Positions 24,282 to 60,193 of a stretch of DNA of 64,000 nucleotides are shown in pieces. The notes beneath the pieces are model-generated. The model was not told the origin of the DNA and did not search any database. It saw only the letters and a program-made list of their open reading frames with translations. Source of the stretch: Dioscorea cayenensis subsp. rotundata (taxonomy: Eukaryota; Streptophyta; Magnoliopsida; Dioscoreales; Dioscoreaceae); the NCBI RefSeq assembly GCF_009730915.1, contig NC_052476.1:19449257-19513256 (forward strand). Reading direction: 5' to 3'. A program made the translations under genes and the position numbers. How positions within the stretch are numbered: position 1 is the first letter of the stretch; each line of letters begins with the position of its first letter.

Positions 24282-27200
24282 TCAAACTCCCACAGTGACT
24301 TGTTTCTGAGATTCCATGCATTTCAACACTTCTTCGCCCATTCTTCGGCATCCTACCAAAGTCTGTACAAATGCATATCAAAATACAACATAAAATAATG
24401 AGTACATCATACCGTATTATACAACAGAAGAGGAGACGAGAACGGGCAAGAATTATAGGCTTACCATTCCTGTGGAAAATATATCGCCGGTTCGAAAGCC
24501 TCTATCTAGGGTTTCTATCACAGCATTCTCAATTCTCTTTGCTGCATTTTCTTCACCAAGTCCATATCGCAAAAGCATTGCCACACTGAGCACCGTCGCT
24601 AATGGATTGGCTTTGTCCTACAACAACACAAGGGGTAAATTTATATGAAACTTTCACTTCTCAGTATAACAAATGTGATTATATATATGTATAGAATTTA
24701 TATCCTCTATGGACGTCCATGAATAAAAAATCTTGATGGATCGATGAAAGTGCACTGTTACAAACAGTAATTAATGTATATGTTACTGCAGTAACTATGC
24801 AGTACTGTTTATCAAGATCCAACGGCTGATAATTGTTGGGACATCCATAGATTTCTTATCTATGGGCGTCCATAGAGGAATGGTTCTCATATATATATAT
24901 ATATATATATATTAATTGCATTGTTTGACCTGTCCTGCGATATCTGGAGCAGAGCCATGGATTGGTTCAAAAGAGTCCAGGTCCCCTACAAGAGAAAGCA
25001 AAACAATTGAGACTGGTACAGGTAAACTACTCATTTAATTCAAATGGAGTCAGAAGCAATAGGGTTTTCACATACTGATTCACTGACGCTGGCAGATGGA
25101 AGCATTCCGATGCTTCCAGTAAGCATAGATGCTTCATCAGACAAGATATCACCAAAAATATTGTTTGTTACAATCGTATCAAACTGCATAAGTTTTAAAT
25201 CATCGTGTAATATATATCAAGCGATTCCATAAACAGGACAAGATATCAGGCAAGGGTGGTGCTAAAATATAAAGCACAAGCCTTTAACATTTATCTTTAG
25301 TTCAAGGTGCTCTGTGGGATTAAAAATACCTGCTTCGGATCACGAACAAGTTGCATTGCAGCATTATCGACATACATGTGTGAGAGCGTGACGTCAGGGA
25401 ACTCTGTGGCCAAAGCTGTCACTCTTCTCCTCCATAGCATGGATGCCTACCAAAGTACATACTAATCAGATGAAAGAGAATTCATCCTAGATCTGATGAA
25501 ACTTACTGGAACCACATTAAAACTTCATGTGTGGGCTGGCACTATAATTAATAGTGGGATGGTCTATCACAGAAGAAAACATATAGCACCACAACTAGAT
25601 ATGATAAACATAAATAATGCATTAATAGAGAAGAGGACATCCTATCCATGTAATTTTTTGTCAAAGAGGGGTAGTAATCTATCAATATAACTAAGCGTAA
25701 AGGAATACAATTGTACGAAACTTAAACTTCACAAAAACCCTAAGAAAACAAGAAAATTTGAAACATTTTCTTCAAAATTTCCCAAAAGGATGCAAAGGAT
25801 AAAGATACATGAAGCATGAATCTGTAACGAAGATGAAAGAATAAACAGTTAGTTATGGAAATACAGCACTTACTAAAATGGAAAAGGATGCCAAGGTTGC
25901 TCAGAAAGAAAAAGAGTATTTCATTGTCAAAGCATCACAAGGCAAAAAATCTAATATTAGGTAAAAGCAACAATTGTTCATGATAAGGAAGGAAAAGTAG
26001 GTTTGAAACACAATTGCACAATTTTCTTTGAATCCTTTAAGCCAGTTAATGACTTGTACAGCAGGAGCAAATAGAGCATTTAAGAGAAGCTCAAATAAGA
26101 CCAGGGACTGAAAAAGAATGTAAAATTTTATTCGAACCCAAGGTGATAATACTACATCCCTTAGCTAAAGCAAAATTTGGGGCAATGAGTATAATCAAAC
26201 AAATTAGAAACAATGCACCAAGCTACCTCCAACACATTTGCTTTGTCAACTGAGCATAATTTTCCTTGTCGCTTTCTAGCAACCTCAAACGCCACACGTG
26301 CAATCCGATCAATCTGTATGTAGAAATTTTTTACAATGAGGCTATAACATCTCATATAATAAGAAAGTGCATAACTACTGATTTATAGTATAACCTTAAT
26401 AACTTAGTGAAGTTCTCACCTTAAGGGAACTAAAAGGTTTTTCCCCAAGTATGACATATAAGCTAAAAAGATATACTAGCAGTTCTATTCTTACAGATCT
26501 TCTTAGCAGCATAGCAAATCTATGCTTCCATTCCAGAAATAATTTGATAGAGAAGGAAGATACCATCACAAGAGTATTTTTAACAAGTGATTAACATAAT
26601 TATATATAGAAATATATAACTAAATAATCAAAGGGAAATAAAAGAGATCAATCCCAAGTTCAATCTACTACCTCAGAAGCAGAATAAACTTCAGTGTTAA
26701 AACCGATGTCCTCACCCCTTTTCATTGTGCCCAAAACCCCTTGGCTTCCCAAAGTAAATTCCTGTTAACATGAGAATTAAAGAAAAAGAAATCAGAAGCT
26801 TTCTCACCAGCCTTACCATAAATCATCACCTTGCCTTGTTGTATAATAAGGAATAAAGCATATCACAAGAAATATATTTATAGATCGCCATACCATTTAA
26901 TAACCTACTATACCTATTATAATTTGCTACAATAAAAAGATAAACCCAGAGAAACGTCACCTCCAGTAAGTTCTCTAACAACCATGATGTCCACACCCTC
27001 AGCAACTTCTCTCTTCAAGGTAGAGGAATCAATTAACTGGGGCCAATTAGAAGAAAGGGTTAAACAGAGTGAGCTTGGACAGTAGCATTCTATCAACTAA
27101 TCCAAAGATACTTGATATCTAAAATTGGTGCAATATGAATTAATGGATAAACTCCAACAAATTACAAACAACTCAAGAAGGGTATATATCACAAAATACT

Positions 27201-28896
27201 AGGAAAAAAATATCATATATATATATATATATATATATTTAAACTAGGATGTACAATTGGTAAAGAAGAATATGCAAAATGTGTTGGATAAAAATAAATG
27301 ATCAATAAACTGCAAACAAACTATCTTCCCCTATAGATAAAAGATTCATTAATGAATCCACAAAGCAACAATACAACAACTTCCAAAACACAAATAAATA
27401 CTGATCATAAGGTATTTATTTTTTATTATATAAGACAGGAAAATGCTAAGCATAGGATGAACTAACAGCACATATTTAACAGGAGTTCTCATGACTATCC
27501 CAGGTAGATATTTTTTTCTGATATCCTACGCACTGTTGAGATTTTTAGTTCAAAGTGCATTAGAATCAGCTCAATATTCAAGTTAAAGCAAGATAATTTC
27601 CTTCTCAGCCAAATACAAAGAAGGACAGGCAATTTAATGATGACAAAGAAGTAATTGCAGACATACAACACCAACTCGTTCTTTCTTTTTCTTTCGTCCT
27701 TCACTTCATTGTAATATAGATATTAGAGGTGCCTGAGCCATATTCCAATTCCAGATCATAGTGAAGTCAAAAGAAAATCTTCAGTCTTACTACAGTCAAG
27801 AAAGAAATAGAAAAGAAATTTATGCTCATAATACCAAACACTACAATCAGAGGAACAACTCTATCCTTTTGGTGAGGTACCAAACTTGCATTTGTAAAAC
27901 CAACATCCATATAATTAGTAGCTATTAATGCAGTCTTAATGGGTACATGGTCGAATGGAATCAATCATCCACACCTACAAAAAAAAAAGCTAGTGTCCCA
28001 TCCTTATCAAAGAAACCTACCTTCATCTCTTTCTGCATCTACGGATGAAAAAAAAGGCAACCTTGGAAGAAATTCTGATAAATGACAACATCAGCAATGT
28101 ATCTGCCGCATTGTACACAGTAAAACAGTTGAGAAATTCTAAAGCATTCTTTCCACTAAATACGCAACAATACCAAACCAAACAAGTTTGCCCAACTAAA
28201 TTGATAAACAAAACTACTTCAATAGGCAAAAGAACAACCAAAAAAACACAAGAGATTCAGAATTCAGTTCAAGAATTACTTGTGGCAATACAGTGGCCGG
28301 CCTCAAGTTTGCAAACACACCAAGCCCTGCTCGTAGCTGAAGCAACCCTGTTTCTGGCTTCAAATGCTTCTCATTCGCATCCCATTTATACCTAAAAAAA
28401 ACACAAATCTCATTCTAATAAGAACCGAGAAACTAACAAATAATCCCCCCAAAAAGAGAAATATCACAAACCCTCCAATGGCTCCAAGAAGGACAGCGTC
28501 CGATTGCTTGGCAACCTCCAACGTCTCCTCCGGCAGCGGAAGTCCAACCTTATCCAGCGCCGCACCACCAACCATCATCTCCCGGAACCGAAACTCAATC
28601 CCTTAAACCAAGAATCAGAGAAAGCCCCAAACCCTCACGAAAGGAGAAGGATTTCCAAGGTCTTACCTTCATAAGAGCCAGCAAGGGCGAGAGCATCCTT
28701 AGCAACGGAGACGACCTCAGGGCCGATACCATCGCCAGGGCAGGAGGGTGATGCTATAGCCCCGGCTGGCCACCGAAGCAGCGGCAGAGCAGCGGAAGCT
28801 CACAAACCTCCGTGCTGTAGTCGATCTAGAGGTTCTAGGGTTTGTGGCAAGGTTTATGGCTTTCAGTGGGCGAAGGCTCGCCTGCAAAGCTGCCAT
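24282..28896 (-). CDS. IMDH: 3-isopropylmalate dehydrogenase, chloroplast type, 11 exons, with four apparent 1-base insertions
   Basis: The enzyme oxidatively decarboxylates 3-isopropylmalate with NAD+, the third step of leucine biosynthesis, in plastids. Exons on the minus strand: 28667-28896, 28472-28601, 28280-28391, 26961-27036, 26672-26761, 26227-26313, 25330-25446, 25076-25183, 24930-24985, 24465-24617, 24282-24362. The start ATG (28896) opens a Ser/Arg/Ala-rich transit peptide of about 40 residues. Recognisable blocks: [123 protein letters not shown]. Frame is lost by one extra base in exon 1 (about 28736-28741), exon 5 (26714-26717) and twice in exon 9 (24969-24972 and 24983-24986). 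Without them the total is 1236 bp (411 residues), the normal length. Assembly error is likelier than decay. A MITE sits in intron 9. Confidence 0.93.
24704..24878. mobile_element. Short MITE (about 175 bp) in IMDH intron 9
   Basis: The left end CCTCTATGGACGTCCATGAA and the right end on the opposite strand, CCTCTATGGACGCCCATAGA, form about 30-bp inverted repeats, continuing with AAAAATC versus AGAAATC. No coding capacity. The flanks are AT-rich and repetitive, so target duplication and superfamily are not settled; a Mutator-like or hAT origin is possible. Orientation relative to the host gene is irrelevant because the element is nearly symmetric. Confidence 0.75.
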
Positions 28897-59487: not shown

Positions 59488-60193
59488 TCAACACCGAAAG
59501 TGGTATAAGTTCACTGCCGGAGTGAGCTTCATCACCGGAATAACAAGATTAATAACATGGCCTTGAAGATGATGATGATGATGATGATGATAGAGATGAA
59601 ACAGTTGATCTACATGGTTAGAATTCACTCCAGCAATCAGCTCCGGTGGTGGTGGCGGGTGGTGGTGGAGGTGGAGGTGGAGGTGAGGTGGTGGTGGTGG
59701 TGGTGGTGGTCTCTTCCGTTTCTTCTTCTCTATAAGCAATGCCACGAGCTTTGGCCTGAGAATCACGTACCTGACGGAGATAGCAACCTCACGGCACGAG
59801 CGCTGAAAGGGTTGGTCTCTCAGGTTGGCCGCCATTTTTCTTCGAAGGCGGCACGAAGACGGGCCGATGAGAGCATCGAGACTGCGCCCCAAGCTTGACG
59901 GAGAGGGCAGGTGCATCGGCGATGGAGGATTGGGGTGGCCGAAGAATGGGCAGTTGGTGTTGTGGACTTTGGCTTTTGCCGAACTGGTCTGAGTAACGGA
60001 GGAATCTAAGAACGTGAGCGCCACTGCAACGAGAGAGAGTGAGAGGTGGACGGTGGTTCTTGAGGTATTGGACGAAAGTGTTCCAGTCTCTGCGTTTTTG
60101 GGATTCGTAGCGGCTTGGTCGGCCGGAAGAAGAGGTGTCGGAGTTGTGGCAGGAGTTGATGGAGTTGGTTGGGATGGTTGGAAAAGTAGACAT
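59488..60193 (-). CDS. ALOG/LSH-family transcriptional regulator with eight apparent small insertions
   Basis: ALOG (Arabidopsis LSH1/Oryza G1) proteins are small plant-specific nuclear DNA-binding regulators of organ boundaries, inflorescence and light responses. The start ATG at 60193 opens a short Ser-rich N-terminus, then the domain begins [40 protein letters not shown]. After that the frame changes repeatedly: [27 protein letters not shown], and the nuclear-localisation-like [12 protein letters not shown] are all recognisable but in different frames. Eight sites between 59729 and 59977 each hold one or two extra bases (ten in total). Without them the frame is 696 bp (231 residues), a normal family length. 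The C-terminus is Pro- and His-rich and ends at a TGA. No intron is needed. Either the assembly is wrong here or this copy is a pseudogene. Confidence 0.88.

Follow-up and report, generated by a model that had tools for sequence, protein, structure and literature searches.

Conserved coding frames are broken in three genes of the window (the whole stretch of 64,000 nucleotides that was analysed), and these frame breaks are very likely an assembly artefact, namely leftover long-read insertion errors, most likely of PacBio continuous long reads, in an under-polished consensus. Judging from the sequence, the plant itself very probably carries intact forms of the three genes (a 3-isopropylmalate dehydrogenase gene, a SART1 homologue and an ALOG gene). 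In the two genes that can be compared closely with a homologue, every resolved break is a gain of bases and no premature stop is found; conservation flanks the breaks, and the breaks are clustered.

Gene content of the window

Judged by the genes it carries, the window is nuclear DNA of a plant. The features considered are as follows.

9894..10893: run of exactly 1000 N
13791..15420, reverse strand: transposase relic (DUF659, 4.6e-52 on 14022-15353), used as a real-decay control
20195-22075, reverse strand: transposon remnant, presumably of PIF/Harbinger type, with DDE_Tnp_4 pieces and a Myb/SANT-like domain, each on separate open pieces
23581-23668, forward strand: tRNA, 60.2 bits, left unnamed by ARAGORN
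24282..28896, reverse strand: 3-isopropylmalate dehydrogenase gene, 11 exons with GT/AG borders, from frameshift-aware alignment to PDB 3r8w; four single-base gains
30762..36861, forward strand: SART1 homologue, 12 exons, from PF03343 matches and exon reconstruction
44010..45416, forward strand: kelch-repeat open frame (control gene), intact from 44010 through to the stop, Kelch_1 E 1.2e-23
56654-56741, forward strand: miR160 precursor, full-length match to the Rfam model RF00247, 83.8 bits
57874..58873: run of exactly 1000 N, separated by 858 bases from the cluster of ALOG errors
59488..60193, reverse strand: ALOG (LSH/DUF640) gene, taken as a single exon of 706 nt, from PF04852 and PDB 8p5q

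From its anticodon loop, the tRNA is probably a tRNA-Tyr with an intron. Two neighbouring tandem duplications, 23141-23252 (56 nt x 2, exact) and 23901-24005 (43 nt x 2.4, 98%), could be recent real duplications or unmerged assembly overlaps. About 3 kb, including the second N run, separate the miR160 precursor from the ALOG gene. No further non-transposon gene that could serve as a quality probe was found among the 11 of 30 open frames or frame pieces with a Pfam match.

Frame breaks in the dehydrogenase and ALOG genes

The protein references were solved structures, Arabidopsis IMDH2 (3r8w) and LSH3 (8p5q), with one main reference per gene, and the genes were compared with these Arabidopsis chains by frameshift-aware alignment, in a final version with symmetric costs that charges gains and losses equally. 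The earlier note had claimed 16 frame breaks in the three genes, and 14 were upheld (four in the dehydrogenase, eight in ALOG and two in SART1). All 12 breaks resolved by homology, those of the dehydrogenase and ALOG, are gains, and with SART1 the count becomes 14 of 14. The claim that every break is a gain extends to frame-shifting breaks only; compensated pairs of a gain and a loss would stay hidden.

For the dehydrogenase, 290 of 361 aligned residues are identical to 3r8w, with four gains, no losses and no stops; four of the 361 are break codons, and over unbroken codons the identity is 290/357 (81-83% across the dehydrogenase and ALOG). The read-through query matched the whole 3r8w chain (E 3.1e-202, residues 4-402 of 405). 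The result of four gains and no losses was unchanged at symmetric costs of 6, 8, 10, 12 and 14, and also at costs 8 and 12 in a first, less symmetric version. All four claimed sites were therefore confirmed as single-base gains by homology, and the claimed coding length of 1236 bp agrees with a spliced length of 1240 (1236 + 4). The sites are as follows; the placement of frame break 1 is accurate to a few bases.

28738..28743, reverse strand: frame break 1 (exon 1), one gained base beside a C run
26715..26723, reverse strand: frame break 2 (exon 5), one gained base beside a G run
24983..24986, reverse strand: frame break 3 (exon 8/9 junction), one gained base in a G run
24969..24975, reverse strand: frame break 4 (exon 9), one gained base in a T run

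The aligner put frame break 3 in the final codons of exon 8 (25078-25081), and its placement at the acceptor is our own reading. All dehydrogenase sites lie about 14 kb or more away from both N runs.

The ALOG domain was recognised by PF04852 on a single unbroken frame (8.4e-25), and the read-through matched 8p5q at 6.8e-75. Identity to LSH3 is 100/128 aligned residues with no stop, eight of the 128 being break codons, and 100/120 over unbroken codons. All the breaks fall in one cluster.

59731..59974, reverse strand: ALOG break cluster, eight frame breaks, 10 bases gained, none lost; GC 0.578

Symmetric costs of 6-12 gave eight gains and no loss, and a cost of 14 gave seven and none; the first, less symmetric alignment gave eight sites at costs 8 and 12, seven at 16 and five at 20, with no loss anywhere. 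Homology to LSH3 thus bears out the eight sites and 10 bases reported earlier, all as gains, and the length of 696 bp likewise holds, since 60193-59488 spans 706 nt (696 + 10). A single open frame runs from the cluster to the stop. Four residues differ from LSH3 at positions that we take to be invariant in the family (G to V, E to R, L to S and E to Q); one of the four lies within the cluster, and the other three are in 60193-59975, which has no breaks. These differences could be further (substitution) errors, hidden pairs of a gain and a loss, or real change.

When the symmetric frameshift cost was cut to 3, 4 and 5, losses were called in both the dehydrogenase (13, 6 and 3) and ALOG (4, 3 and 2), and with a single reference per gene losses at these costs are indistinguishable from substitutions. 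In the dehydrogenase they are about as many as the gains, so a low cost absorbs ordinary substitutions and proves nothing.

Frame changes in the SART1 homologue

Three pieces of the SART1 homologue, which we take to be plant DOT2-like, match PF03343, two of them above the cut-off (1.3e-17 and 5e-15) and the third below it (5.6e-06). By exon reconstruction, exons 2-12 (1894 nt) are open to the stop with no break. Four sites had been claimed in this gene, but only two frame changes were found, both in exon 1.

31184..31234, forward strand: two frame changes in the Arg/Asp/Lys-rich exon 1, near 31186 and 31229, within about 45 bases, from a composition model

In their effect on the frame, two +1 changes and one -1 change are the same, so these breaks are read from composition alone. 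The path test used an amino-acid composition model fitted to that exon itself, with no homologous reference over the Arg/Asp-rich part; in it, for each of the six costs tried (2-12), the two-gain path scores better than the best path made of losses only, and a single-loss path would win only near a cost of 18 (extrapolated). Amino-acid composition thus supports a reading as two single-base gains. The claimed length of 2910 bp does not go with four sites: the exons from the ATG at 30840 total 2913 nt, so 2910 needs three gained bases, and a candidate for the third lies at the start codon.

Uneven quality along the window

The sites are distributed over the coding bases as 8/706 in ALOG, 4/1240 in the dehydrogenase, 2/2913 in SART1 and 0/1284 in the kelch gene (14/6143 in total). 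ALOG is enriched in sites (P 4.8e-5), and within it they are confined to 240 of the 706 bases (P 0.003). SART1 exons 2-12 and the kelch gene together hold none of the 14 sites (P 3.7e-5, or 0.005 without ALOG), a division chosen post hoc. An F-box/kelch gene described earlier as intact does show kelch motifs and an open frame, but Pfam finds no F-box; its intactness had been offered as proof of uneven quality and is weak when taken alone (P 0.038, or 0.20 without the ALOG sites). Uneven quality is better supported by the clustering in ALOG and by the lack of breaks in SART1 exons 2-12 than by the zero count in the kelch gene. The full-length miR160 match and the tRNA in the window agree better with errors in patches than with errors throughout. 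The sites lie in sequence of higher GC, with a local value of 0.546 where the coding mean is 0.443 (rank test 2.5e-6, in which the ALOG sites are not independent), and without ALOG the excess gives P 0.010 with n=6 sites.

Insertion error compared with decay and with other sources

Published rates were used to compare sequencing error with decay. In Table 1 of PMC5553090, PacBio subreads show 5.92% insertion and 3.01% deletion, a ratio of about 2:1, while the nanopore reads in the portion of that source used here lose more bases than they gain. Decay runs in the opposite direction from PacBio in the portion of PMC8662616 used here: deletions exceed insertions 2:1 in yeast introns (1.5:1 with all intron sets), deletion against insertion is 0.0364 against 0.0177 in Brassicales proteins, about the same 2:1 ratio, and for human and rodent processed pseudogenes that source cites a deletion bias of more than three-fold. 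The gains outnumber losses here as PacBio-type insertion error requires. Under the quoted PacBio subread mix (PMC5553090), 12 of 12 gains has P 0.007 and 14 of 14 has P 0.003, so that 12 of 12 is somewhat extreme even for PacBio subreads, from which some losses are expected. Under the deletion biases quoted from PMC8662616, 12 of 12 has P 2e-6 at 2:1 and 1.7e-5 at 1.5:1, and at these rates the gain count alone favours PacBio over 2:1 decay by about 3800 to 1.

The signs of a pseudogene were not found: mixed gains and losses and premature stops were sought over the 361 + 128 aligned residues, with 0 losses (symmetric costs 6-14) and 0 stops, and conservation is not lost between the lesions (290/361 and 100/128 identical to the Arabidopsis chains). 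At assumed indel:substitution ratios of 0.2-0.051, 12 indels accumulated under neutrality should be accompanied by roughly 60-235 substitutions and by 3-13 nonsense changes. The DUF659 relic, which we take to be of hAT type, carries a TGA in frame (14019-14021), and reading it by eye against an assumed consensus gave one gain and one loss; its lesions are mixed, as real decay should be, although this control comprises three events only, and sequencing error could also account for two of them, which lie in A runs. Its pieces 13791-14018 and 15227-15529 gave no Pfam match. Two repeat copies, 17176-17720 and 29189-29700, with an overall similarity of 83%, share a core of about 95 bases without a difference, and related pieces with CCCTACCC-like edges lie at 12190-12407. 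The copies (also 12190/28985) were aligned as a noncoding control for indels biased to one side; the longer copy varies by place, and the alignments do not indicate which side changed.

It is very unlikely that one or more of the genes is a true pseudogene with real small insertions. ALOG would be the most plausible case, since ALOG genes presumably form a family with several paralogues; about 240 bp of it contain eight of the 14 sites, and a few conserved-looking residues differ from LSH3. Against this, its breaks are gains in eight of eight cases, the 128 residues hold no stop while 100 match LSH3, and one open frame continues from the cluster to the stop, whereas neutral decay favours losses and would add many more substitutions. 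The earlier conclusion that the breaks reflect error and not pseudogenes is thus well though indirectly supported at the sequence level by gains only, no stops and the high identity over unbroken codons.

A different source of error, a homopolymer-limited platform (454 and Ion Torrent are of this kind) or nanopore reads, is very unlikely. The breaks had been described as often lying in homopolymers, and by a by-eye reading of contexts this is true of the dehydrogenase, where four of four sites are in or beside short homopolymers, as such platforms would predict, but of only two of the eight in ALOG, where two more are dinucleotide repeats; the two SART1 sites are ambiguous and were scored as non-homopolymer. 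The total of 6/14 leaves eight sites not clearly in homopolymers, which speaks against a homopolymer-limited platform, and is close to the 46.07% given for PacBio subread indels in PMC5553090. Nanopore error fits poorly because losses exceed gains in such reads, and 12 of 12 gains has P 1.4e-5 or less under the nanopore mixes quoted from the same source.

An annotation artefact, in which short introns or alternative splice sites shift the frame without an extra base, is extremely improbable. An alternative donor four bases downstream in dehydrogenase exon 8 would restore the later exon 9 frame, but it destroys the GPGLFEP motif common with 3r8w; in SART1 a GTAAGG that resembles a donor was noted by eye near 31234, but the sequence after it is purine-rich and no acceptor-like pyrimidine tract was seen there. 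Nor are splice sites a likely account of eight breaks within about 240 bp of ALOG. It is hardly credible that the plant itself carries the extra bases, neighbouring genes having been hit within a short time by a local mutational process that favours insertions and left no losses or stops.

Origin and meaning of the extra bases

In the preferred explanation by leftover insertion errors, long single-molecule reads would bring in extra bases, which may survive where read depth is thin or short reads fail to correct them. Correction may be hindered in the GC-rich ALOG gene and in the purine-rich, low-complexity SART1 exon; we infer the platform, the shallow depth and the dependence on GC or low complexity. 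The earlier note had proposed raw reads filling gaps, which does not agree with the error density. At the PMC5553090 rates used here, across the ALOG domain a raw PacBio subread would carry about 55 errors, of which about 23 would be gains, 12 losses and 20 mismatches. Raw-read density (near 14%, with losses and mismatches) was not found there: the domain has 10 gained bases and no resolved loss, mismatches being inseparable from real substitutions. Since a raw read would be considerably richer in errors, raw reads pasted into gaps are a less likely source than a thin, unpolished consensus, and the distance of the dehydrogenase sites from both N runs leaves gap filling unsupported.

As a data-quality artefact, the result has warning value and brings no new biology. 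Automatic annotation would be liable to lose or truncate the dehydrogenase, the SART1 homologue and the ALOG gene, which we take to act in the leucine pathway, in splicing and in the regulation of development, respectively, and false pseudogenes or false gene loss could be reported from the assembly. Such errors can be flagged cheaply and without reads by a sign test, in which frame breaks are scored as gains or losses and stops and conservation are considered as well.

Comparison with known systems

The dehydrogenase resembles the known 3-isopropylmalate dehydrogenase (PF00180; PDB 3r8w) at 290/361 residues and differs by four single-base frame breaks in the assembly, and the ALOG gene resembles its ALOG/LSH family (PF04852; PDB 8p5q) at 100/128 and differs by eight. 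The SART1 homologue shares with the SART-1 family (PF03343) three pieces that match the model, two above the cut-off, and open exons 2-12, and differs by two frame changes in exon 1. Residual indel errors that fragment genes in long-read assemblies are the problem addressed by Kastor, in the portion of PMC12007338 drawn on here. As in such assemblies, extra bases split conserved genes that are whole once read across, and the errors are uneven; in contrast to them, only gains are resolved here, and the ALOG stretch would be dense for a consensus though sparse for a raw read.
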